A program made the position numbers and the translations under genes. The notes under the pieces are model-generated. The model saw only the letters and a program-made list of their open reading frames with translations, searched no databases and was not told where the DNA came from. Of a stretch of 35,436 nt of DNA, positions 2,611 through 29,397 are shown piece after piece (the stretch's first letter is position 1; each line of letters opens with the position of its first letter). This DNA comes from a virus. The DNA is taken from positions 1-35,436 of the IMG/VR virus record IMGVR_UViG_3300010885_022602; one strand, written 5' to 3'.

Positions 2611-2757
2611 ATGCCACTCGTTAAATCACCAACCCCCAAAGCCTTTCGTGAAAACGTCAAGGCTGAGGTCAAGGCCGGGAAGCCTATCAAACAAGCTGTT
2701 GCGATTGCATATGCAGTCAAGCAAGGCGCAAATAAATCAATGGCCAAAAAGAAATAA
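2611..2757 (+). CDS. Small Lys/Ala-rich phage protein
   Basis: A 48-residue frame: it starts MPLVKSPTPKAF, continues with KAGKPIKQAVAIAYAVKQ and ends MAKKK. A Lys/Ala-rich protein with the phrase GKPIKQAVAIAY is a pattern I have seen in short phage proteins near the terminase and portal genes, of unknown function. A GAGG-containing sequence (GAGGTAAATT) precedes the ATG. The stop TAA shares one base with the portal ATG (TAATG), so the gene is packed in the same operon. It is very basic, so nucleic-acid binding is possible but unproven. Confidence 0.75.
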   Translation: MPLVKSPTPKAFRENVKAEVKAGKPIKQAVAIAYAVKQGANKSMAKKK

Positions 2758-4943
2758 TGGCTGATCAAACAGGCATGGTAGCGGTAGGAAATGTCGCCAA
2801 TGGTGGTGGCAGGAGGAACGATGATTCCGACGTTCTAGCTACCGCTCGTACCCGCCTGGACATGGCGATTTCAGCGTTGTCGGAATCCCGCGAGGATGAG
2901 ATCGACGACTTGAGATTTTATGCTGGTAGTCCGGATAATCAATGGCAGTGGCCTGCCGATGTGTTGGCGACCCGTGGAGCGGTGCAGGGTCAGACCATCA
3001 ACGCACGACCTTGCCTGACCATTAACAAGCTGCCCCAGCACGTTAGGCAGGTAACCAATGATCAACGGCAGAACCGTCCAACTGGCAAGGTTATTCCAGC
3101 CGACGACAAGGCAGACATTGACGTTGCCGAAGTCTTCAACGGCATGGTGCGGCACATTGAGTACATCTCGGACGCAGATGTGGCTTACGACACCGCATGC
3201 GAAAACCAAGTCTCCTACGGAGAAGGTTATATCCGACTCTTGACCGAGTATTGCGACGACAACACGTTTGATCAGGACATCAAGATTGGTCGGGTACGCA
3301 ATTCGTTCTCGGTGTACATGGACCCGACGATCCAAGATCCTTGCGGTGCCGACGCCAAATACTGTTTTATCACCGAAGACATCCGCAAAGACGATTACCA
3401 ACGGATGTATCCCGATTCAGCGCCCATCACGACTTTACAAACGCTTGGAGTGGGTGACCAGAACTTGTCGCAATGGTTGAACGAGGACACGATTCGCGTT
3501 GCTGACTATTATTACGTTGATTACGATACGGCTACGCTTAATTTGTACCCTGGCAACGCCACGGCGTTTGCTGGAACGCCTGAAGACAAGCAGTTGAAAG
3601 CTATCTACGGCAAGCCCAAGAAGAGCCGTGAATCTGACCGACGAAGAATCAACTACTGCAAGATTAACGGATACGAGATCTTGGAAAAACGCGAGTGGGC
3701 GGGTAGATTTATTCCGGTTGTGCGTGTTGTAGGCAACGAATTCGAGGTAGATGGTCGTTTGTACGTATCTGGTATCGTGCGAAATGCCAAGGATGCCCAG
3801 CGGATGTACAACTATTGGGTGAGCCAAGAGGCAGAAATGTTGGCGTTGGCTCCCAAAGCACCATTTATCGGCTACGGTGGGCAGTTTGAAGGTTACGAGA
3901 ACCAGTGGAAGACTGCCAACACGACCAACTGGCCGTATCTGGAGGTGAACCCTGACGTCACGGACGGCGCGGGGGTTACCCTGCCACTACCCCAGCGTGC
4001 CCAGCCTCCGATGGCCTCTACGGGCCTCCTGCAGGCAAAAGCGGGGGCGTCTGAGGACATAAAATCGTCGACAGGACAGTACAATGCCTCCTTGGGCATG
4101 ACATCAAACGAGCGTAGTGGCAAGGCAATTCTTGCGAGGCAACGTGAAGGCGATGTAGGCACTTACCACTTTGGTGACAATTTGGCACGTGGTGTGCGGT
4201 ATTTGACCCGCCAATTGGTGGACCTGATCCCCAAGATTTACGATACTCAGCGTATTGCTCGAATTATCGGTGAAGACGGCGAGACAAGCATGGTCAAGAT
4301 CGACCCGATGCAGCAAGAGCCGGTCAAGAAAATCGTAGATCAGCAAGGTATCGTGATCGAAAAGATTTACAACCCCGGTGTTGGGAAGTATGATGTGGTG
4401 GCCACTACCGGGCCGGGTTACGCGACCAAGCGCCAAGAAGCGTTGGAAGCAATGGCCCAGTTGCTGCAAGGCAATCCGCAGTTGTGGCAAGTAGCAGGCG
4501 ACCTGTTTGTGAAGAACATGGATTGGCCTGGTGCCCAAGAAATGGCGAAACGCTTTGCCAAGACGATTGACCCCAAGCTGATGCAAGACGGCGACAAGCC
4601 TCCTGAGTTGCAGGCCGCAGAGCAGCAGATTCAGGCGATGGGTCAGGAGATGGAGCAGATGCACCAGATGATTATCAACGCCGGTAAGTCGATTGAGGCG
4701 CAAGACATGCATCGCAAAGACTTTGAGGCGACTGTAAAGGCGTATCAAGCCGAAACCCAACGCATCTCTGCTGTGCAAGCCAGTATGTCCCCAGAGCAGA
4801 TTCAAGATATCGTCATGGGTACGGTTCACGGGATGATCACTTCGGGTGATCTGGTGGGCGAGATGCCTGGTCGTGATGTGGACACCGGGCCGGAGATGCC
4901 GCAAGAGGGCATGGAACAACAGCCAATGGGAATGCCACAATGA
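2757..4943 (+). CDS. Portal protein, P22 gp1-like
   Basis: A 728-residue portal, close to the length of the P22 portal (725). The body segment with DLRFYAGSPDNQW near residue 50 and the NQVSYGEGYIRL region near 150 match the P22-type portal family. The C-terminal part (about residues 600-690) is Gln/Met-rich and predicted to be helical or coiled-coil, as in the barrel and crown of P22-type portals. It forms the dodecameric channel at the packaging vertex and binds the terminase and the head completion proteins. The ATG overlaps the preceding stop, and the stop overlaps the next start (ATGA). Confidence 0.93.
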   Translation: MADQTGMVAVGNVANGGGRRNDDSDVLATARTRLDMAISALSESREDEIDDLRFYAGSPDNQWQWPADVLATRGAVQGQTINARPCLTINKLPQHVRQVTNDQRQNRPTGKVIPADDKADIDVAEVFNGMVRHIEYISDADVAYDTACENQVSYGEGYIRLLTEYCDDNTFDQDIKIGRVRNSFSVYMDPTIQDPCGADAKYCFITEDIRKDDYQRMYPDSAPITTLQTLGVGDQNLSQWLNEDTIRVADYYYVDYDTATLNLYPGNATAFAGTPEDKQLKAIYGKPKKSRESDRRRINYCKINGYEILEKREWAGRFIPVVRVVGNEFEVDGRLYVSGIVRNAKDAQRMYNYWVSQEAEMLALAPKAPFIGYGGQFEGYENQWKTANTTNWPYLEVNPDVTDGAGVTLPLPQRAQPPMASTGLLQAKAGASEDIKSSTGQYNASLGMTSNERSGKAILARQREGDVGTYHFGDNLARGVRYLTRQLVDLIPKIYDTQRIARIIGEDGETSMVKIDPMQQEPVKKIVDQQGIVIEKIYNPGVGKYDVVATTGPGYATKRQEALEAMAQLLQGNPQLWQVAGDLFVKNMDWPGAQEMAKRFAKTIDPKLMQDGDKPPELQAAEQQIQAMGQEMEQMHQMIINAGKSIEAQDMHRKDFEATVKAYQAETQRISAVQASMSPEQIQDIVMGTVHGMITSGDLVGEMPGRDVDTGPEMPQEGMEQQPMGMPQ

Positions 4944-8687: not shown

Positions 8688-9449
8688 ATGTCGGAAGAGA
8701 ACCTAGCGGTTGTAGAACCCGCGCTGGAACAGGTGGCAACGGCTGCACCTGAACCCGAAGTTAACGCGCCGGAAGCAGAAGCACCCAAGACCTTCTCGCA
8801 AGAGGAACTTGATGCGGCTATTGGAAAACGCCTCGCAAGAGAGCAACGAAAGTGGGAACGGGAACAAGTACAGAGGGTTGCGGAAACGCAGACCTTGAGG
8901 GCACCGGCAACACAATCTGCTGACCAGTTTGAAACGCCAGAGGCTTACGCCGATGCGTTGGCCTACCAAAAGGCTGAACAACTGATCGCGCAGAGAGATG
9001 CGGCCAAGCAGCACTCACAAGTTCTTGAGAGTTATCACGATAAGGAAGAGGAAGCCCGTGCTAAGTACGATGACTTTGAACAAGTAGCGTACAACCCCAA
9101 GCTGAGAATTACTGATGTGATGGCCGATACGATTCGGTCTTCGGATGTTGGACCTGAGTTAGCTTACTACCTCGGAACTAACCCCAAAGACGCAGACCGT
9201 ATATCTCGCCTAGCCCCGCTTGTGCAGGCAAGGGAAATTGGAAGGATTGAGGCCAAGTTGGCATCTGACCCTCCGATGAAACGTACTACATCAGCGCCAG
9301 CGCCGATTTCGCCTGTTACTGCCCGATCCACTGGATCACCGGCCTATGACACTACGGACCCACGTTCTACCCAGAACATGACGACCTCGCAGTGGATTGA
9401 AGCTGATAGGGCACGGCAGCGGAAGAAGTGGGAAGCGCAAACCCGCTAA
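8688..9449 (+). CDS. Capsid scaffolding protein
   Basis: A 253-residue, highly charged protein immediately before the coat gene. Its layout is scaffold-like: a Glu/Pro/Ala-rich N-terminus, a long helix with KTFSQEELDAAIGKRLAREQRKWE (a motif common in phage scaffolds), an extended Gln/Glu-rich coiled-coil middle, and a basic C-terminus ending in RARQRKKWEAQTR. A basic C-terminal helix binds the coat protein in P22 gp8. It directs procapsid assembly and leaves before maturation. AGGA lies about nine bases before the ATG. Confidence 0.85.
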   Translation: MSEENLAVVEPALEQVATAAPEPEVNAPEAEAPKTFSQEELDAAIGKRLAREQRKWEREQVQRVAETQTLRAPATQSADQFETPEAYADALAYQKAEQLIAQRDAAKQHSQVLESYHDKEEEARAKYDDFEQVAYNPKLRITDVMADTIRSSDVGPELAYYLGTNPKDADRISRLAPLVQAREIGRIEAKLASDPPMKRTTSAPAPISPVTARSTGSPAYDTTDPRSTQNMTTSQWIEADRARQRKKWEAQTR

Positions 9450-9468
9450 TTTTTTAAGGATTTTCTTC

Positions 9469-10677
9469 ATGGCTAATTCGATTCTTACCATCGACATGAT
9501 CACGCGCAAAGCGCTTGAGATTCTCGAAAACAACCTAGTGCTTACCCGCAACGTAAACCGTCAGTACGACGACAGTTTTGCTGTTCAAGGTGCCAAGATT
9601 GGTTCTACCCTGCGTATTCGCCTGCCTGACCGCGCTTTGGTCACTGACGGTGCTGCCCTGCAAGTTCAGGACGACAACGAACAGTTCACCACGCTGACTG
9701 TCTCCACTCAAAAGCATATCGGCGTGAACTTCACCTCCGCTGAACTGACGATGCAGTTGGACGACTTTGCCGAACGTGTGCTGAAGCCACGTATCAGCCA
9801 GTTGGCATCCAGCATTGACGCTGACGTTGCTAATGCGTACAAGACTATTGGTAACACGGTCGGCACCCCCGGCACGACTCCTTCGACCTCTTTGGTGCTG
9901 TTGCAAGCCCAGCAGAAGTTGAACGAAAACGCTGCTGTGATGTCGCCTCGTTATGCAACGGTTAACCCGGCTGCAAATGCTGGCCTGGTTGAAGGCATGA
10001 AGGGATTGTTCAATCCTACCGACACCATCAGCAAGCAGTTCAAGAACGGCATGATGGGCACTGGCGTGTTGGGCTTTGACGAGATCAACATGTCTCAGTC
10101 GATCAAGCAGTTCACCACGGGTTCGCGTGATGCTACGGCAGCTACCACTGTGAAAACCACGGTGACTTCTGAAGGTTCTGCTAGCCTTGTTTTGACCCAA
10201 GGTTCTGTAAGCACAACCCTTAAGGCTGGCGATGTGTTTACCGTCGCAGCTTGCTTTGCTGTGAACCCGCAAACCCGTGAAACCACTGGTTCGCTGTTTC
10301 AGTTTGTGGCTTTGGCTGACGCAACCGCTGTGTCTGGCGATTGGACTGTGACTGTTGCTGCCATGTATTCCGCTGCTCACGCACTGGCTACCATGACTGC
10401 CTTGCCAGTAGCTGCTGCTGTTGTGACTTTCGTCGGCACCGCTTCTACTGCTTACGCGCAGAACTTGGTTTATCACAAGGACGCCATCACATTTGCTACG
10501 GCTGACCTGTTGCTGCCCCAAGGTGTTGATATGGCTGCGCGTGCTGTTCACAACGGCATTAGTTTGCGCGTTGTTCGTCAGTACGACATCAACAACGACC
10601 GTATGCCTTGCCGTATTGATGTGCTGTACGGTTTTAATACCATTCGTCCACAGATGGCCTGCCGCATCTGGGGTTAA
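9469..10677 (+). CDS. Major capsid protein, P22 coat-like
   Basis: A 402-residue coat protein. The N-terminus MANSILTIDMITRKALEILE followed by NRQYDDSFAVQGAKIGSTL is the hallmark of the P22 coat family (P22 gp5 is 430 residues), which has the HK97 fold. The C-terminal part contains VRQYDINNDRMPCRIDVLYGF. A longer frame opens at 9397, but it overlaps the scaffold gene, while the ATG at 9469 has TAAGGA eight bases upstream, so this start is chosen. The insertion-like region around residues 220-300 is rich in Thr and Val and may correspond to the I-domain. Confidence 0.93.
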   Translation: MANSILTIDMITRKALEILENNLVLTRNVNRQYDDSFAVQGAKIGSTLRIRLPDRALVTDGAALQVQDDNEQFTTLTVSTQKHIGVNFTSAELTMQLDDFAERVLKPRISQLASSIDADVANAYKTIGNTVGTPGTTPSTSLVLLQAQQKLNENAAVMSPRYATVNPAANAGLVEGMKGLFNPTDTISKQFKNGMMGTGVLGFDEINMSQSIKQFTTGSRDATAATTVKTTVTSEGSASLVLTQGSVSTTLKAGDVFTVAACFAVNPQTRETTGSLFQFVALADATAVSGDWTVTVAAMYSAAHALATMTALPVAAAVVTFVGTASTAYAQNLVYHKDAITFATADLLLPQGVDMAARAVHNGISLRVVRQYDINNDRMPCRIDVLYGFNTIRPQMACRIWG

Positions 10678-20967: not shown

Positions 20968-21356
20968 TGTCACTCGACCCACTCACCGCAGGCATCGACC
21001 TCGCCAAGACTGTCGTGCAAACGATTTGGCCCGACAAGACTGAACAGGAGAAGGCGCAGCTTGCCGCAGCACTTGCTTTGGTACAGGGTCAGTTGGACAT
21101 CAACAAGGCAGAAGCAGGCTCTACAAGCGTTTTTGTCTCCGGGTGGCGACCAGCGATAGGCTGGGTCTGCGGCGTGGCTTGCGCGTGGAACTGGATCGGT
21201 CTGAAGGCATTGCTGTTTGCTGCTGCCTACCTAGACCATCCGCTGACGGGTTTAGCGCCAGCGGACTTGAGTGAAATGATGCCCGTCTTGATGGGGATGC
21301 TCGGCCTAAGTGGCCTTCGCACCATTGAGAAGCTAAACGGTCGCGCTTCTAAGTAG
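20967..21356 (+). CDS. Holin, 3TM GTA-type
   Basis: A 129-residue protein whose central and C-terminal parts hold hydrophobic segments: GWRPAIGWVCGVACAWNW, then LKALLFAAAY, then a short MMPVLMGMLGLSG before a basic tail. The SGWRPAIGWVC phrase and the leading helix with WPDKTEQEKAQL are characteristic of the three-TM holin family first named for gene transfer agent release. It would form membrane lesions that free the muramidase. It is the last plus-strand gene; its 3' end overlaps the minus-strand primase-helicase gene by eight bases. Confidence 0.88.
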   Translation: MSLDPLTAGIDLAKTVVQTIWPDKTEQEKAQLAAALALVQGQLDINKAEAGSTSVFVSGWRPAIGWVCGVACAWNWIGLKALLFAAAYLDHPLTGLAPADLSEMMPVLMGMLGLSGLRTIEKLNGRASK

Positions 21357-23925
21357 CTTCATCTTGTTTCTCCTCGATTGGTTTTGGGAACTTGGACGCG
21401 CTACGAGCAGCGCTGATTGATGACCATAGGTGCGGTACTGTGTCCTGTGTCAGGTCGTACGCGTAAGTAGAGCCATGCCATTTACCTGAGGGCCGGGTCT
21501 TCTTGAATCCGAGTCCCCGGAGTACCTTCTGGACCCGTAATACGTCATTCTGGCTCTGTCTTGAAGTGTCGATCTGCAACACGATGCCGAGTATCAAATG
21601 TAACGGACCTGAGCGGACATTGAAACCCGCAACCGGCTGACCGAGTTCATACCGGGGGACGGCGAAAAAGATTTCATTGGCAAAACTATCTGGATCGGTA
21701 AGTGCATCCCGAATCCTCTGGAACCATGGCTCCACATTTTCAACGCTAATTTGGCGGTCACCTTGCTCCTCAGTAACTAGCTCTTGTGGGACTTTATGCC
21801 AATCCTCCCCTAATTCGTAAGCGTAGACTGCCTCAGCCCATATCTGCTCGCGCATCTCTTTCAGCTGCAGTGTCCGGACCGGCCCACACTCACCCACGTG
21901 AGTCGGCCAGAATCGACGGGCACCCGTCAAATCAGAGATATACGCCTGACCCACCTCGTTGGTGGTACCAGCAAAAACGCAGGTGCGGGGATAAGCTTTC
22001 GGATCACGTTCATAGGAAAGCCGGACATCGTCCACAGTGGTGGTCAAGATCGCCTTGAGCGCTTCCATATCGGCACGACGGACAGTCGCGAGTTCCGACA
22101 TTTCTACGATCATCTTGCCTGCAATCACGGCTACCATGTCTTTATGGGATGTCCCACCACCCGTCATGCCGCCTGAATATTCGGTGTAGAATTGCCCTCC
22201 AAGAATACGAAGTGCTTGCGATTTGCCGATACCCTGAGTGCCTTCAAAGATCAGCATATGGTCGGCTTGGCATCCGGGTTCCATGGCACGAGCCACGGCG
22301 CTGATCAGCCATTTGCGCCCTATTGCTCGGGTATATTCGGTATTCTTGGTCCCCATGTAATCTGGTAGCCACGTGTCGAGGCGACGGGTACCGTCCCAAA
22401 TCAATTGCTTCAGGCTGATCCGCAGGGGATTGACTCGGTATTCACTGGCCAGATACTTGATCACTTGGCTCATGTGCATTTGCTTGACCCAAGATTCCCC
22501 GGCTGAGTGGAATCGGACCATCATATTGATTTCTTCCTCTTCGCTGCATTTCGGGCAGTCGATATCTCCAATCTTGCCGACGCGAACCCGGTGGTCATAA
22601 TCCGCAATCCAGAACATGGGTACAATGCCTTCATCCTGCATTAAACGGGCACGGTTAATAATGCCTACGATATTACCTCGTTCGTTATTATCTCCGATCG
22701 TCTCCCGCTGAAATCGCTTACGCTCTGACTTGATCAAGTCTTCCAACAACAATATCCGGGGGCGAGCGCATTCTTTGCGAAGTTTCTTCAGAATCTGGAT
22801 CAACTGCTTTCCGGTAGCGCAAGCTGACTGGACCAATTCATTGTCCATTTCTGCAGACGGGCCATCACACCAATCTTTCAGCCGGTCATATATTGTCTCG
22901 GGACTTTTGTAAGTCGGGTCGATCTTCTCACGGAATTCCTTCCAACGGAAGGCGGAGCAAGAATCATGGAGACACCGATACACAGGCCGGTTGCTGACCA
23001 AACCCACCATGGGGTCGGAGTGAGTCTCATTGAATGGACATTTCGAGATGATCCATTTCTGGCCTTCATTGCCAAACATTGGGCGCGGACCGCTCATGAT
23101 CGTTTGCCCCCGATCAGTCAGCCATTTCACCATATCGGAAATGTACTCGCCGGTCATGTCCCGGAATTCGTCTGATTTAGCGTCTCGCAGTGGCCTCGCC
23201 ACATTTTCAATCTGGTCGCGGGTCAGGAGCTTCAATTCCTTAGGAACCCGTGTCAACATTGCGACCCGGTGTGGCCGGTCAGCCGTATGGGATCCCTTGG
23301 CGCTCACCGTACCGTAAATCTTCCAAACCCGGCTCGAATTGAAGACAGTAACGTCTACTTTGACCGCATCATCCGAGAAAATGGAAGACAGCATCTTAAG
23401 CGCATACTCAAAATCAATCCGAGCCAAGTCGTCATTCGGCTCGTCGACCCGGTACATCACGTGACACCCATTGCCGCTGTCGGCTCGAATTGGTTCCGGC
23501 CACCCGATCGATGTTAACCACTCGACCACATCATCTGCCTTGCGCAGAGCAGCTTCGTATTCCGATTTGGATGACGAGATTCCAGCGGGTCGGACTGCAT
23601 CAAAATCAAGTAAAAACCAGCGGCGGCGTAGAACATCAACATCCGAAGACGTCATGAACGAGCCATAAGTTAGCGTATTCTCGCTACGTGCCATTAATGC
23701 TGGTTGGATCGGGTTCACGGTCATGTAGACCGATTGGTGTTTACCATTCTCCTTGGCGATCATAGAGGCAGCGATGCCGGTATCATTGAAATACCCGCTG
23801 ATCGTCCCTGCCTTCGTCTTAGGAATCCGTACCTCGAAAACGTCCCCCGGTGCATGCAGTAGATCGAGCGTGGCCTTGATAATTATCGCAGGCTTCGTCT
23901 CCGCATATTCTTTGAATTGATTCAC
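21349..23925 (-). CDS. AEP primase-polymerase fused to VirE-type helicase
   Basis: An 858-residue replication protein. The N-terminal archaeo-eukaryotic primase domain keeps its catalytic motifs: D107 and D109 in FLLDFDA, H155 in SGNGCHVMY and D191 in VDVTVF, followed by R199 and K202. A Cys/His cluster (C296, H302, C318, C323) and a CPKC (457-460) suggest zinc sites. The C-terminal half is a virulence-associated-E-like superfamily 3 helicase with Walker A EGTQGIGKS at 561-569. It probably primes and unwinds, and may polymerise. Start is GTG at 23925 with AAGGA six bases upstream. It ends the minus-strand operon and overlaps the holin gene. Confidence 0.9.
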   Translation of the reverse strand: MNQFKEYAETKPAIIIKATLDLLHAPGDVFEVRIPKTKAGTISGYFNDTGIAASMIAKENGKHQSVYMTVNPIQPALMARSENTLTYGSFMTSSDVDVLRRRWFLLDFDAVRPAGISSSKSEYEAALRKADDVVEWLTSIGWPEPIRADSGNGCHVMYRVDEPNDDLARIDFEYALKMLSSIFSDDAVKVDVTVFNSSRVWKIYGTVSAKGSHTADRPHRVAMLTRVPKELKLLTRDQIENVARPLRDAKSDEFRDMTGEYISDMVKWLTDRGQTIMSGPRPMFGNEGQKWIISKCPFNETHSDPMVGLVSNRPVYRCLHDSCSAFRWKEFREKIDPTYKSPETIYDRLKDWCDGPSAEMDNELVQSACATGKQLIQILKKLRKECARPRILLLEDLIKSERKRFQRETIGDNNERGNIVGIINRARLMQDEGIVPMFWIADYDHRVRVGKIGDIDCPKCSEEEEINMMVRFHSAGESWVKQMHMSQVIKYLASEYRVNPLRISLKQLIWDGTRRLDTWLPDYMGTKNTEYTRAIGRKWLISAVARAMEPGCQADHMLIFEGTQGIGKSQALRILGGQFYTEYSGGMTGGGTSHKDMVAVIAGKMIVEMSELATVRRADMEALKAILTTTVDDVRLSYERDPKAYPRTCVFAGTTNEVGQAYISDLTGARRFWPTHVGECGPVRTLQLKEMREQIWAEAVYAYELGEDWHKVPQELVTEEQGDRQISVENVEPWFQRIRDALTDPDSFANEIFFAVPRYELGQPVAGFNVRSGPLHLILGIVLQIDTSRQSQNDVLRVQKVLRGLGFKKTRPSGKWHGSTYAYDLTQDTVPHLWSSISAARSASKFPKPIEEKQDEAT

Positions 23926-23926
23926 G

Positions 23927-24370
23927 TTAAATCCTTGTCAGTGTTTTAAGTATGGGAACCAACACTTTTACGACATCAGCTTGATTACACGTAGCGGTAC
24001 ATATTAACTGCATATCGGAAGCGTTATGAATCTCGGGCACGGTAGCGTGGTATATACCGTCCACCAGATATAGCGTTTTCTTAACGCGAATCAGGAAATG
24101 AATCGGCATATGAGGGAGCCAGCGTCGCATAAATTGGTGTTGCGAAGGCTCGACTTTAATGCGGCGAGTCGGAAAAAGATCTGTGTCGATAGCCTTGAGT
24201 TCTAACCATCCAACCCGATATTCAATTCGATGATCTTCCTCGTTGACCATCACATAATGGAGGTCGGGTATACCGGGGCTAATATGACGATCTTCATGCC
24301 ATGCCATCATCCACTTGCCCCTCATCGCCGGTCCAATAAAGTGCCGGAATGACAGTTCAGCTGTGTTCAT
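23927..24370 (-). CDS. PD-(D/E)XK nuclease (VRR-NUC/resolvase-like)
   Basis: A 147-residue protein with the core of a restriction-fold nuclease: GIPD (D36) followed about 20 residues later by WLELKA (E57, K59). A QHQFMRRW helix after the core matches VRR-NUC-like and podophage endonucleases. It may act in recombination, concatemer processing or destruction of host DNA. It lies between the HD phosphohydrolase (14-base overlap) and the primase-helicase, one base upstream of the latter. No clear SD was found, so it is probably translated by coupling. Confidence 0.8.
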   Translation of the reverse strand: MNTAELSFRHFIGPAMRGKWMMAWHEDRHISPGIPDLHYVMVNEEDHRIEYRVGWLELKAIDTDLFPTRRIKVEPSQHQFMRRWLPHMPIHFLIRVKKTLYLVDGIYHATVPEIHNASDMQLICTATCNQADVVKVLVPILKTLTRI

Positions 24371-24911
24371 ATGCGTAGAACATGATGTAGTCTTTCACAT
24401 GCGCGATCACATGCTCCGGCCAATGATGTTCGTCCTTGGCGGACTCGAAGATTTTGAGTATCTGCTCTTCGAGTCCCTCCTGCGCGTGAGATGCAGTCAT
24501 ATCGACTCCATGTAAACGGACGAATCGGATGCCGTCCGCAAGATCGCACATCTTGATCAACATCATGGTGCTTGAACGTGCTTCTAAGAAAAAATCACGT
24601 GGTGTAACCAATTTCTCCAAAGCACTGATCCCAGTAAGCATTTTCTTTGTATGAGAGGGGATATCGCCGGTAAACGCTTCCGGGAGGTCGTGCACCAGAG
24701 CCACAGCGCCCACGTAATGGTAGGTGTCGAAGAATTCGATCGGGGAATTCAGTGCGATGAGCATCGCCAACATCGCCACGTTCGCGGAATGTTCGGCCAG
24801 ATTTTGGGTCCGAGTCGTGTCAATCATATGCCAGCGCTTCACAGCCTGAATCCGCATCACCGATTCCAACATGTGCCGTTCTGGTCCGTAGGCCAAGAAT
24901 TTATTTAACAT
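24357..24911 (-). CDS. datZ: HD phosphohydrolase, DatZ-like dATP triphosphohydrolase (putative)
   Basis: A 184-residue HD-domain enzyme of the YfbR/DatZ type. Metal ligands are visible: H41 in AEHS, H74-D75 in VHDLPEAFTGD (with E78) and D123 in KMCDLAD; the R26-W27 pair lies in the substrate-binding helix. In Z-phages DatZ removes dATP (to deoxyadenosine and triphosphate), excluding adenine from replication. The adjacency to purZ and mazZ makes this the best call; a general 5'-nucleotidase of the YfbR type is the alternative. ATG at 24911 is chosen over GTG at 24917 because GAGGAG lies five bases before it. Confidence 0.82.
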   Translation of the reverse strand: MLNKFLAYGPERHMLESVMRIQAVKRWHMIDTTRTQNLAEHSANVAMLAMLIALNSPIEFFDTYHYVGAVALVHDLPEAFTGDIPSHTKKMLTGISALEKLVTPRDFFLEARSSTMMLIKMCDLADGIRFVRLHGVDMTASHAQEGLEEQILKIFESAKDEHHWPEHVIAHVKDYIMFYAYEHS

Positions 24912-24913
24912 AA

Positions 24914-25285
24914 TCACTCCTCGTAATAAACATGACTATTTACCCCATTTTTGTCAGTCACCCATGTCCGAGCTTGGTTGATTTCAAGCTTTCGCAAGAC
25001 TGCCGTGGTAACGTCAACCTTCTTACGTTTGGCGTAATCCAGCAAGAGGATAAACATATCAGCGATCTCGTTCGCGTCCCCGTCTGACTCGATCATTTCA
25101 GCGATCTCACCATACATCTTGAGGTACATACTGGCATCGTTACGATTCGGAAAAGTAGCCTCTGCCCATTCGAATACTCGCTCAGTTAATTCCCCCACTT
25201 CAGTATTGTGGTCGTGGGACCAATCATTAGTTTCTTCGGGGTCTCCGAGATAATCTATCATAAGTTCAAACTCCAATTGTTTCAT
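24914..25285 (-). CDS. mazZ: MazG-fold pyrophosphohydrolase, MazZ-like
   Basis: A 123-residue all-helical protein with the MazG metal motif: EIAE (E60, E63) and EIAD (E73, D76), that is EXXE then EXXD. MazZ enzymes cut dGTP (and dATP) to the monophosphate, so they feed dGMP to PurZ and also lower dATP. The ATG at 25285 overlaps the purZ end by 20 bases and has GGAG at good spacing. A second in-frame ATG at 25261 also has a GGAG, so the start is not certain. It precedes datZ by two bases. Confidence 0.83.
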   Translation of the reverse strand: MKQLEFELMIDYLGDPEETNDWSHDHNTEVGELTERVFEWAEATFPNRNDASMYLKMYGEIAEMIESDGDANEIADMFILLLDYAKRKKVDVTTAVLRKLEINQARTWVTDKNGVNSHVYYEE

Positions 25286-26339
25286 AGTATTCTCCAACAG
25301 TATCGACGTCATCATCATCTGGACCAAACCCAAGCCAACTCACACTGGGTGGGTTGCCGTTGAGGACAGAAGCGGTTTCTATCTTGTTGATAATGCTTCG
25401 CAGTTCCTCGGTCCCATAAGTGTAGTTGGCGAAATTCAGAAATACTCGGGTATCCCAGTATCCACCACAATGGAAAGCTGCCTCTTGTGCCTGCTGCTGA
25501 CTGAATGTGAAGATTCTGCGCTTAAGTTTAGTGACCGTTGTGAATTCTGGCTCGACCCCGAGATCTTCGAAGCTGATTTCCTCTTGGTCGGGGTAACAGG
25601 GTCCACTGCTGCCGGTACGGTTGTTGACCCGGATCGGAAAGCATCGCATGGAACCGATAACCTTGATGTAGCTCGCCCACCGGTAAGGCAACGCACAGTC
25701 AGCCGCAATCTGCCAAGGAGTAACGTCGCGAGATGTGGTGTACGGGTATTGGCCGTGATACATCGAGAGACTAAAGCCTTGAGCACCTTCTATCAACACA
25801 TTTTCAGCCCGTCGAAGAGCTTCGCGGTATTTCTCCGGAGTGGTCACGCACCATTCTAGTTCAGTCCCGGCCCAACGGATCGCGGCGATGTTCGGGTTAG
25901 TCGGGTCGCGCTTAATACGCTCGATAGCTGCAGCACCGACTCCGTGAACGGTCGACCCGATCTTGGCCATACCCCATTCAACTTCCTGATCTGTGTGGTA
26001 CTCTTCAATCACGGCGGCGTGAGGGTGAATCAGGATCTGCTTGCCTTGGAGAAGATGGCTGTACTTATGAATTTCACCTAACAGGGTCGGCCCATGAATC
26101 AGGGATCCGGGTCCGATCAGTATTTGCTTCACGGTTGGGGAAGACAACGCACCTGTGGGAATTTGCTGCGTCATCAAATGGATTCCACGAGACTTGTCGA
26201 TGTAAGTGTGTCCGGCATTGACTGCAAAAGAGCAGATCGACGTGTCGTAATTACCACGCTTGGCTAGATATCCAGCGATCAAGCCTTTGCCAGTGGACCC
26301 GTACTGAAAATCCATCACCATGTCAACATTATGTGTCAT
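25266..26339 (-). CDS. purZ: PurZ, N6-succino-2-amino-2'-deoxyadenylate synthase
   Basis: A 357-residue member of the adenylosuccinate synthetase family. The P-loop-like motif of PurA (QWGDEGKGK) is here QYGSTGKGL: the catalytic Asp is replaced by Ser at residue 15, the change reported for phage PurZ, which uses dGMP plus Asp. NAGHT (41-45) keeps the catalytic His. The IHLMTQQIPTGAL and GVGAAAIERIKR segments correspond to PurA HLIPSG and ARKIGTTGRG regions. Length is shorter than bacterial PurA (about 430), as in phage PurZ. The product is turned into dZMP by host PurB. The start overlaps the HNH gene stop by four bases (ATGA). Confidence 0.93.
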   Translation of the reverse strand: MTHNVDMVMDFQYGSTGKGLIAGYLAKRGNYDTSICSFAVNAGHTYIDKSRGIHLMTQQIPTGALSSPTVKQILIGPGSLIHGPTLLGEIHKYSHLLQGKQILIHPHAAVIEEYHTDQEVEWGMAKIGSTVHGVGAAAIERIKRDPTNPNIAAIRWAGTELEWCVTTPEKYREALRRAENVLIEGAQGFSLSMYHGQYPYTTSRDVTPWQIAADCALPYRWASYIKVIGSMRCFPIRVNNRTGSSGPCYPDQEEISFEDLGVEPEFTTVTKLKRRIFTFSQQQAQEAAFHCGGYWDTRVFLNFANYTYGTEELRSIINKIETASVLNGNPPSVSWLGFGPDDDDVDTVGEYYETIGV

Positions 26340-26728
26340 TGTTTGACCTTAAAAAAGTTACCCTTGCTATAATTAACATTGCCGGGTAACAATTGTAAGT
26401 TGTTTTCCACATGCAATCCTGAAACTAATTGACCCCGCAAAGGAATAATATGATCAACTGTCATCCCAGTTCTTTCGGCTTCTTGATAAATAGCCTTAAT
26501 CTTTTCATGGTCTGCCCAAGAGGGGACCCTTTGTATTTTCGCGAGTTGATACTTCCTCGTCTTGGCCAACACAGTGGCTGAATTATTGCGGTTCGATCTG
26601 TTAATAATCTCTCGCACCTTCTCAGGGTTCGCGGCTCTCCACTCGTTGATTTTCGCAAGTCTGCGCTCTCAATTCGCATGATAATAAGCAGCATTATAAG
26701 CTTTCGTCTCTTCTGCTGATAATCTCAT
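26336..26728 (-). pseudogene. HNH endonuclease gene with in-frame TGA at codon 20
   Basis: The reading frame from ATG 26728 (overlapping the dpoZ stop as ATGA) to stop 26336 (overlapping purZ start as ATGA) is 131 codons, interrupted only by TGA at 26669-26671. Downstream it contains LAKINEWRAANPEK and the HNH core VDHIIPLRGQLVSGLHVENNLQLLP. The basic N-terminal motif is typical of phage homing endonucleases. A one-base change (CGA to TGA) would explain the stop. A shorter frame from ATG 26617 keeps the HNH core (93 residues) and could still make a protein. The DNA is more A/T-rich than its neighbours, consistent with insertion. Confidence 0.8.
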
Positions 26729-28545
26729 TTCGATGCCTCATACCAGTTATGACCAAAATCCCCACTTGCAGTGATCGGAACCCGCATCTTCACCACCGAA
26801 TTCTCATTATTGAAATTTGTATAGCGTTTGATGATCAGGGATTTGACCTCATCATCTTGTTTCATACTCACCCCGATTTCGTCGTGGCACGACATCAGAA
26901 GCCTCGCCGGGAGTTGTTGGGAGCGGATCAAAGCATCGACTTCGACCAGCCCGATTTTATGTAAGTCGGCAGCGTAAGATTGGTAGAGCAGTCCAGCTGC
27001 TTTGTGGGCACCTGTCGGGAATCTCAGACGGCGACCCACGGCTGTCCGGACATGTCCGGTTTCCTTAGCCACGGCTTCCGCTTTCTTCATGAATTCCTTG
27101 ACTCCGGGAAGCTTTTTATGGTAGAGGTTAAATATGTCGGTGGCTGACTGTCCTGCCACGTATTGCATCTTGCCTCGAGCCTCTTTGATCTCGTAAGGCA
27201 TCCCCATCATGAACGCCAGCTTCCCGACTCCTGCTCCGAATGCGAGTCCGAGATTGATCTGCTTTGTGTTCGGCGCACCCGCATATGTTGCATTTCGGGG
27301 GATTCCGGTCATGTCAGATACGATCTGGTGGTAATCCAAGCTCGGATCTAATGCATAAGCGTCGATCACGCTCTGGTCGTTGATCAGATGTGCCGCGCAA
27401 CGGAAGTCTACTTGCGAATAATCAGCACAAAACCATTCGTCTTCTGCATCAGGGAGGAACATGGCCCGGAGGATTGCAGCGTTGACTTTATCGCGCTTTG
27501 TGATCTGCTGTAACGCCGGGTCCGTAGACGATAAACGTCCGGTGACAGTCCCTGCATCTGCATCATTACGTGTTTGATTGAATTGGGTATGTACGTATCC
27601 GTCCCCATCAGCACTTCCGATAACATGGCCACGGATAAAGGTGTCTCGTAACTTGATCGTCTTACGAAGAGCCAATATTTTCTCAGCCAGAGGATGCTTG
27701 ATGGTTCGCATGACGTTCTGGTCAAGTGATGGACCCTTCCCACCTTTGGTCGGCCCGACGAGCGTACCGTCGAGTAGACGCCATTGAAATTTGCTGATCG
27801 GTTCCGGCTTGAAGAATTCGCGGACTTGGGGAGACGAGTTGACATTAAATTTCCCTCCTGTGATTGCGTTGATTTCAGCTTGAAGAATTCCCTCTTGGTC
27901 GTCCAATCGGGGGATGGCAGCATGTGCCGCTTCGAGATTAACCCGGATGCCAGTCCAAGACATGTCAGCCAGCACAGGCATAACGTCTTGTTCAAGCTGC
28001 AGTACTCGGTGCAGGTCTTGCTTGGAGATTTCGGACTGCTGAGCACGGTAGATTAGGAGGGCGTCGGAGGCGTCGGAGGCACCGTACCGGGCCACCATAG
28101 CTGCGGGGACTTCTGAGAGTCGCCGTAGTACCTCCCGACTATCTCGCCACCCCATCGCGGTACGTATCTCCTCGAGTATCATGGTTTTCTGGCTGTCGAT
28201 GCCACGGTACTTCGCAATACTAGCCAGATCGTAGGTAAGGTGATGTTCATTGATGAGGCACTCAGCCACCATCGTGCAGTACCAATTGGTCAGTCGAGGG
28301 TCGGCTCCAAGAACACGAGAACACTGATATTCATACTGAGCGTTCTGAGCGACTACCGTTCGATTTCGAATAGTGTCACGTAACCATGCAACAACGCTTG
28401 GATCATCCCGAATATCCCAGTACCAAGAATCGCTGCCAGTAGCCACGCCGATACCAAACACGCGAAAATCGGGATCCCAATACTTAAGACCAGTAGTCTC
28501 ATAATCGAGCGACATGATTTCATTTTTTGGTATCTCGGGAAACAT
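26725..28545 (-). CDS. dpoZ: A-family DNA polymerase with 3'-5' exonuclease, DpoZ-like
   Basis: A 606-residue PolI-type replicase. Exonuclease motifs: ExoI LDYETTG (D14, E16), ExoII-like QNAQYEYQ (Glu where Asp is usual) and ExoIII YGASDASD. Polymerase motif A is DYSQVDFR (D for the usual E), motif B NTKQINLGLAFGAG, and motif C SCHDEIG with HDE. DpoZ polymerases favour dZTP over dATP through their exonuclease. The frame is open to 28596, but that part reads through a terminator hairpin, so the ATG at 28545 is the more likely start; its SD is weak (AGAG). Confidence 0.9.
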   Translation of the reverse strand: MFPEIPKNEIMSLDYETTGLKYWDPDFRVFGIGVATGSDSWYWDIRDDPSVVAWLRDTIRNRTVVAQNAQYEYQCSRVLGADPRLTNWYCTMVAECLINEHHLTYDLASIAKYRGIDSQKTMILEEIRTAMGWRDSREVLRRLSEVPAAMVARYGASDASDALLIYRAQQSEISKQDLHRVLQLEQDVMPVLADMSWTGIRVNLEAAHAAIPRLDDQEGILQAEINAITGGKFNVNSSPQVREFFKPEPISKFQWRLLDGTLVGPTKGGKGPSLDQNVMRTIKHPLAEKILALRKTIKLRDTFIRGHVIGSADGDGYVHTQFNQTRNDADAGTVTGRLSSTDPALQQITKRDKVNAAILRAMFLPDAEDEWFCADYSQVDFRCAAHLINDQSVIDAYALDPSLDYHQIVSDMTGIPRNATYAGAPNTKQINLGLAFGAGVGKLAFMMGMPYEIKEARGKMQYVAGQSATDIFNLYHKKLPGVKEFMKKAEAVAKETGHVRTAVGRRLRFPTGAHKAAGLLYQSYAADLHKIGLVEVDALIRSQQLPARLLMSCHDEIGVSMKQDDEVKSLIIKRYTNFNNENSVVKMRVPITASGDFGHNWYEASK

Positions 28546-28557
28546 ATTATGCTCTAT

Positions 28558-28585
28558 AAAAACCCCCCTGCCCGAAGGCAGAGGG
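28558..28585 (-). terminator. Intrinsic terminator with UUCG loop before dpoZ
   Basis: On the minus strand CCCTCTGCC, loop TTCG, GGCAGGGGG and GTTTTT form a nine-pair stem (one G-T pair) followed by a T run. It lies between the SSB-like gene and dpoZ, so the Z cassette is at least partly separated in transcription from the upstream early genes. No clear promoter for dpoZ is seen in the 18 bases that remain before its start; readthrough or phage-specific control is likely. Confidence 0.75.
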
Positions 28586-28635
28586 AAAAACCCCATGTGG
28601 CAACTGCAAAGGAGCCATGGGGAAGGGAGACTCAG

Positions 28636-29397
28636 TTAAATGCCGCCGCGATCAGCGGAGGTAGCTGCGTCCTTCTCGGGGACAGCGCTCGCGTGATCCG
28701 CCGTGATCTCACCGGAACGGAATGCGGTGTAAAGCCGTTCAGCCTCTTCGTAGACTGCTTTCGGTGGGAACCCGGCAGGCTGTACGACGAAGTTCTTGAA
28801 CTTCTGGCCTTTCTTGTTCTCGTCAGTGAAAGAGGACAGCTTGTAAACGCGACCAAATCGGTCACCACCAGCGATCTGGATCATCGCATTCCACTTGCGC
28901 GAGACTTTAGATTTAGTCTTGGCCATGGAAATGACGATTTGCTCTTTCTCGCCCTCAGGAGTGATCCGCAAGCCGTAATGCACTGGCGTGTCCACGATCT
29001 CCAAATGCTCGGGGTTTTCCCCGTTCCGGACTTCCGTAGCTTTGCGCTCCTCTGCTTGCTCCAACGTGGGAAACGATCCGAAGAAGCCACCACCTTGATC
29101 CTGATCCTTCCAGATCAGATACTCTAAGCGAAAGTACACCGGGACGAAATAGGCATGGTCGCCTATAATCTCCTGCGTCACTGAATTAAACAGCAGGCCA
29201 TCACGGGCATCCTGATTCAGTTCTTTGATAGGAGAAAGAGCCTGGACGATCTCCAAGCGGGGCAGCACCATGTCGGAGGATTTGACCTCTTCCGATCCAC
29301 GGGCTGCGCCCTGCTTGATGTAGTCAGGTGCCGTAGTCACAGCAAACGGATCTGCGGGAACGATTGCGACTTCAGTTTTCTTAGGGTTAGTAGCCAT
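28636..29397 (-). CDS. Conserved phage protein, possible ssDNA-binding protein
   Basis: A 253-residue protein. Residues about 45-200 contain a beta-rich core with VLPRLEIVQALSP, FVPVYFRLEYLIWKD, YGLRIT and VRK.WNAMIQ segments, and a final Gly/Lys-rich FKNFVVQPAGFPPKAVYEEA. The layout resembles proteins of phage replication regions proposed to bind single-stranded DNA; I cannot confirm the OB fold or name. The last 25 residues are disordered. GGAG lies 11 bases before the ATG. A terminator follows it. Confidence 0.75.
   Translation of the reverse strand: MATNPKKTEVAIVPADPFAVTTAPDYIKQGAARGSEEVKSSDMVLPRLEIVQALSPIKELNQDARDGLLFNSVTQEIIGDHAYFVPVYFRLEYLIWKDQDQGGGFFGSFPTLEQAEERKATEVRNGENPEHLEIVDTPVHYGLRITPEGEKEQIVISMAKTKSKVSRKWNAMIQIAGGDRFGRVYKLSSFTDENKKGQKFKNFVVQPAGFPPKAVYEEAERLYTAFRSGEITADHASAVPEKDAATSADRGGI

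Follow-up and report, generated by a model that had tools for sequence, protein, structure and literature searches.

The stretch of DNA analysed here, which we call the window, is the complete IMG/VR virus record IMGVR_UViG_3300010885_022602 (35,436 bases). Our subject is the region 24357-28545, where the minus strand holds, in this order, dpoZ, an HNH gene, purZ, mazZ and datZ; next come genes for a VRR-type nuclease and a VapE/VirE primase-polymerase (PrimPol). All of these lie in the leftward early and replication module (35323-21349), which also encodes an SNF2-type helicase and Pam3 gp32/33/34-like proteins. The rightward genes, at about 492-21356, encode a terminase, a P22-type portal, a scaffold, a coat protein, gp4-like and gp10-like head-completion proteins, fibres, ejection proteins, an endolysin and a holin. 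An earlier note, made from the sequence alone, had placed dpoZ, purZ, mazZ and datZ together in one orientation, with their ends overlapping or nearly adjacent apart from the HNH gene. The coordinates bear this out: datZ and mazZ overlap by 4 bp, mazZ and purZ by 20 bp, and purZ and the HNH gene by 4 bp. The genes of the region are as follows.

26725-28545, minus strand: dpoZ, a family A DNA polymerase with a 3'-5' exonuclease, phiVC8-like (DpoZ-2)
26336-26617, minus strand: HNH endonuclease fragment between dpoZ and purZ, accessory (phrog_26577, 8e-15; endonuclease VII family phrog_1035)
25266-26339, minus strand: purZ, predicted 2-aminoadenylosuccinate synthetase (dGMP to dSMP)
24914-25285, minus strand: mazZ of the MazZ-1 type, predicted (d)GTP diphosphohydrolase supplying dGMP
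24357-24917, minus strand: datZ, predicted HD-domain dATP triphosphohydrolase

As the earlier note had proposed, each of the four proteins fits the family known from phages that carry 2-aminoadenine (Z) in place of adenine. Their top PDB matches are all Z proteins of phiVC8 or S-2L, and a cellular paralogue never matches better. DpoZ scores 867.6 bits against the NCBIfam model NF038380 phage_DpoZ_1, for which the curated cut-off is 500, and its top match is phiVC8 DpoZ (7pbk, 4e-100). When aligned with the published hallmarks, it displays the three phiVC8-type polymerase insertions and the equivalents of L455, F459 and G548. It also retains D26, E28, the Tyr and Asp of exo III, and the polymerase aspartates.

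PurZ matches phiVC8 PurZ (6fko, 7e-76) and S-2L PurZ (7odx, 4e-69), and retains the TTVT loop. The position of the catalytic Asp13 of PurA is a serine, the motif being GSTGKG versus GDEGKG in Escherichia coli PurA. Among 124 aligned homologues, 115 have Ser at this position and three have Gly; Asp is found in E. coli PurA and five others. In a maximum-likelihood tree of PurZ and PurA with 85 rows, the window PurZ lies within a clade of 22 uncultured viral records (support 100/100) that is nested in phage PurZ and is separate from PurZ0 (Wayne, Ghobes), from archaeal and bacterial relatives, and from E. coli PurA. The earlier note had counted a clustering with PurA against its own proposal; the serine and the place inside the phage PurZ clade exclude an ordinary PurA. 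A scan of bacterial and archaeal genomes with PurZ of this clade found only distant relatives (at most 46% identity), mostly on contigs of metagenome-assembled genomes (MAGs), and pointed to no host. Separately, contigs assigned to archaea or bacteria (L061-L069, L071 and L073), among them Halobacteria, Lokiarchaeota, Lachnospiraceae and Clostridia, were seen to encode PurZ-like proteins in which the Asp13 position is Ser or Gly; most of these proteins fall outside the phage PurZ clade.

MazZ is, by its sequence, of the S-2L type (MazZ-1). Its top PDB match is S-2L MazZ (7ody, 6.5e-13), it belongs to Pfam PF04447, and its alignment retains the equivalents of S-2L E35, E38, E50, D53, I56, D60, K76, N80, R83 and W85. 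In MazZ-1 enzymes, E35, E38, E50 and D53 bind ions, and I56 and D60 serve guanine recognition. The position of E34 is a glycine in the window, and this is the single MazZ position that the S-2L authors report as variable. The gene has an ATG start with GGAGA ahead of it; an alternative upstream TTG at 25333 is possible.

DatZ matches S-2L DatZ best (6zpa, 7.6e-12) and the dATP triphosphohydrolase family phrog_7076 (3e-22), starting at either GTG 24917 or ATG 24911. In alignment with S-2L DatZ, it retains the HD metal ligands and the equivalents of R19, W20, E70, K81, K116 and D119. A DatZ match was found in 56 phage records, all in phage groups that also have PurZ. We note separately that Pseudomonas phage PAKlein3 (L047:435-3887) encodes a DpoZ-related polymerase and an annotated dATP triphosphohydrolase gene beside thymidylate synthase and dCMP deaminase; purZ was not seen within the stretch fetched.

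The gene set recurs well beyond the window. Two scans of IMG/VR gave 25 and 167 PurZ-encoding stretches, and mapping the window proteins onto PurZ loci recovered the order gp33, gp34, DpoZ, PurZ, MazZ and DatZ in dozens of contigs; in the window's own clade, VRR and PrimPol come next after DatZ. A DpoZ tree from a shorter search recovered the same 22 records as a single clade. The nearest homologues from isolated phages are 46% identical for PurZ, 38% for DpoZ, 40% for MazZ and about 33% for DatZ. A Z-cluster is defined by mazZ lying between datZ and purZ (PMC8342488), as it does here. Given the decisive family scores and the recurring order, the gene set is not a chance assembly. What is new is an undescribed uncultured clade of 22 records; the Z pathway, the cluster and the gene order were already known. 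We note, as an observation in its own right, that a 41.9 kb Verrucomicrobia MAG contig (L060) has homologues of gp34, DpoZ, PurZ, MazZ and DatZ arranged as usual; it may be a phage that was binned with the MAG, or it may hint at a host.

As the dpoZ-purZ-mazZ-datZ order recurs in dozens of contigs, we believe that the best explanation is a genome in which Z stands for A. Very probably, the window encodes a complete Z replication operon in a P22-headed podovirus, and its virion DNA would carry Z in place of adenine. We infer the presence of Z in the DNA of this phage and, from the biochemistry of S-2L, phiVC8 and SH-Ab 15497, every enzymatic step. Work on those phages established that MazZ makes dGMP, that PurZ makes dSMP and that the host finishes the synthesis, with DatZ destroying dATP and DpoZ preferring dZTP (PMC8342488, PMC8599892, PMC8065100, PMC12884076). 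We propose that MazZ would convert (d)GTP to (d)GMP, and that PurZ would join dGMP to aspartate to give dSMP. Host PurB and nucleotide kinases would then convert dSMP to dZTP. Meanwhile, DatZ would remove the triphosphate from dATP and thereby deplete the dATP pool. With primers from the AEP-VapE protein, DpoZ would copy the genome with Z opposite T and disfavour A. The resulting virion DNA, with Z for A, may resist many host nucleases that read adenine-containing sites.

Several observations weigh against this reading. The window PurZ exceeds the curated cut-off of its model, NF038379 amino_Aden_PurZ, by a narrow margin (304.7 bits against 300). No terminal repeats were found in the linear record, so the completeness of the genome is uncertain. 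The earlier note had also held that each protein has the key residues of its family; most are indeed kept, but two base-contact positions of DatZ differ, I22 being Met and P79 His, and in DpoZ the catalytic Asp of exo II (phiVC8 D85) is Glu. Judged from sequence, this Glu could weaken the proofreading that has been proposed to help reject A. Under partial replacement, the strongest of the alternatives, the phage would make dZTP, yet some dA would enter through the Glu-bearing exo II and an altered DatZ pocket, giving DNA with a mixture of A and Z. The exo II Glu occurs in 17 of the 22 DpoZs of the clade, the phiVC8 R161 residue is not retained, and I22 is the residue that shuts dZTP out of S-2L DatZ (PMC8065100). 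However, phiVC8 exonuclease mutants still prefer dZTP (PMC8599892). The exo II trait changes six times on the DpoZ tree used, and Glu is also found in a non-Z polymerase (MW202483); thus, the trait is labile. Conservative changes at the DatZ base-contact positions are reported by the S-2L authors in other Z phages (PMC8065100), ZP6 DatZ likewise has Met at the I22 position, and dATP would still be removed by DatZ. We therefore regard a mixture of A and Z as unlikely.

A second alternative is that the cluster is decaying in this record and has lost its function through the inserted HNH gene or some other damage. Between dpoZ and purZ there is indeed an HNH fragment, about 390 bp long (26336-26727, minus strand), whose frame has an in-frame stop in the 5' part. 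However, both neighbours are intact: the four Z genes are full-length and open, they share 78-91% identity with their counterparts in the relative L002, and the end of dpoZ coincides with that in relatives. Decay of the cluster is thus very improbable. We also considered the HNH gene as a member of the pathway. This was ruled out because dpoZ almost abuts purZ in L002-L006, where the HNH gene is absent, and similar HNH genes occur at different places in L005, L082 and L083. Its sequence reads as a free-standing mobile endonuclease gene, possibly decayed.

Least credible of all is that these are ordinary nucleotide-scavenging genes (PurA, a YfbR-like 5'-nucleotidase and MazG) in a phage with normal ATGC DNA, a view that the generic Pfam names Adenylsucc_synt, YfbR-like and dATP-dGTP_PPHyd would allow, but which is at odds with a PurZ that has Ser at the catalytic Asp position, is nested in phage PurZ, scores above the PurZ cut-off and co-occurs with DatZ, MazZ and DpoZ in a fixed order.

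The Z genome remains our preferred reading. The features that flank the cluster are:

21349-23925, minus strand: AEP-like primase-polymerase fused to a VapE/VirE helicase domain
23927-24370, minus strand: VRR-NUC-like nuclease gene, adjoining datZ as in ZP6 (phrog_2165, 1.6e-11; GIPD...WLELK motif; clade synteny)
28563-28586, minus strand: hairpin resembling a terminator or attenuator, lying between the gp34-like gene and dpoZ (10-pair stem, TTCG loop, TTTTTAT)
28636-29397, minus strand: Pam3 gp34-like replication-module protein (PF23977, 5e-60), found 5' of dpoZ in phiVC8, ZP6, SH-Ab 15497 and the clade

The earlier note had described a VirE-type PrimPol. Pfam finds only the VapE-like domain PF05272 in this protein (1.6e-67, residues 505-719). 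As a sequence search of its N-terminus against PDB chains gave no real match, we used a structure model. An AlphaFold model of residues 1-402, of moderate confidence (mean pLDDT 77), was searched with Foldseek; the top match was the RepB' primase 3h20 (E 9.8e-4, probability 1.00), followed by archaeal, mycobacterial and CRISPR-associated primase-polymerases. DhD and SGNGxH motifs are also seen in the sequence. The model thus supports the description: the protein appears to consist of an AEP-like polymerase part and a VapE helicase domain.

The dpoZ reading frame could extend to a start at 28596. However, the terminator-like hairpin and T-run between 28545 and 28596 make 28545 the likelier start. 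The hairpin suggests attenuation or a separate promoter, in which case the Z genes may be regulated apart from the genes before them.

The second part of our argument concerns the head. The earlier note had called the phage P22-type, and matches for the portal, coat, scaffold and head-closure proteins agree: the structural module comprises a P22-type portal, coat, scaffold, gp4-like and gp10-like proteins, and ejection proteins (PF16510, phrog_283, phrog_578 and others). Two of its features are:

2757-4943, plus strand: P22-like portal protein (PF16510 P22_portal, 6e-175)
9397-10677, plus strand: P22-like major head protein (phrog_283 major head protein, 3e-73)

The window genes that were scanned include no recognisable integrase, a tRNA scan of the window found none, and a nucleotide search of phage records with half of the window as query gave no match. 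At the protein level, the closest heads belong to the P22-like podoviruses DSL-LC05 and MW202483, with identities to the window of about 76-77% and 68% for the portal, 76% and 82% for the coat (the MW202483 match is an annotated P22 coat protein) and 76% and 77% for the gp4-like protein. PurZ is absent from both records. As the closest head relatives found lack PurZ, the head genes and the replication genes seem to have had different histories, and the Z module for replication apparently passes as one block from one head type to another.

P22_portal scores above the Pfam cut-off in the window and in 13 other IMG/VR records with PurZ. Ten of these records fall within the clade; the other three, behind L012, L149 and L152, lie outside it. 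One MAG with a PurZ contig also has P22_portal, on a different contig. None of the ten isolates tested (eight with PurZ, two with PurZ0) had P22_portal above the cut-off, BUCT555 giving a weak match below it. We found no description of a P22-type Z phage in the open-access literature searched. As a side observation, three records of 40-45 kb (G008, G019 and G020, behind L009, L086 and L088) belong to the clade by PurZ and DpoZ and yet have no P22 portal, which suggests further head exchange.

The earlier note had linked the Z cluster both to a P22-like head and to a VirE-type PrimPol. The first link is the new part here, being undescribed in the literature we searched. The second was already known: S-2L, Wayne and Ochrobactrum phage OH also encode primase-polymerases, and the S-2L PrimPol aligns to the VapE region of the window protein (29%), so there is precedent for a PrimPol of this type next to a Z-cluster. 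Work on S-2L, phiVC8, ZP6, SH-Ab 15497 and Wayne had already revealed the cluster, its order and the adjacent PrimPol.

With these results, phages with P22-type heads join those known to carry the Z gene set. Additionally, the clade offers naturally occurring DpoZ variants in which an exonuclease residue is changed, which can help in learning how the polymerase rejects adenine, and it is a source of many new PurZ, MazZ-1, DatZ and DpoZ sequences that could be used to produce DNA containing Z. We consider the P22 pairing and the exonuclease-site change to be the parts worth following. A broader hypothesis joins them: a widespread, undescribed P22-headed Z clade, with the exo II Glu in 17 of its 22 DpoZs, might exclude A mainly through DatZ and the polymerase site, not proofreading, and the P22 portal might have been paired with Z genes more than once, given that L012, L149 and L152 are outside the clade. 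Taken as a whole, we put this forward tentatively, as possible but doubtful.

How does the window compare with named systems? In phiVC8, ZP6 and SH-Ab 15497, dpoZ, purZ, a MazZ gene and datZ are arranged as they are in the window. The Vibrio phage phiVC8 (Enhodamvirus) is also a podovirus, with gp33/gp34-like proteins, DpoZ, PurZ, a MazZ and DatZ in order, and its PurZ and DpoZ are 46% and 36% identical to those of the window. However, its MazZ is MazZ-2, a gene of primase size separates dpoZ from purZ, and its portal belongs to family PF12236, whereas the window has MazZ-1, a PrimPol downstream of datZ and a P22-like portal. The cyanophage S-2L shares an unfused MazZ-1, the purZ-mazZ-datZ order with overlaps, the PrimPol alignment noted above and a VRR-NUC gene, but it is a siphovirus without DpoZ, and its sole polymerase, the PrimPol, does not select for Z (PMC8065100). 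Alteromonas phage ZP6 (Mareflavirus) is a podovirus with nuclease, HD, MazG, PurZ and DpoZ in order; it differs in having a primase between purZ and dpoZ and a head-tail connector of PF12236, not a P22 portal. Acinetobacter phage SH-Ab 15497 has one of the closest DpoZs (38%), a MazZ-1-type domain and DatZ, but this MazZ-1 domain lies within a longer fused protein, the helicase is of the PcrA type and there is no P22 portal. DSL-LC05 and MW202483 have similar heads but lack PurZ, and their replication modules differ from that of the window, which thus resembles a combination of a P22-type head with a replication module of the Z kind.

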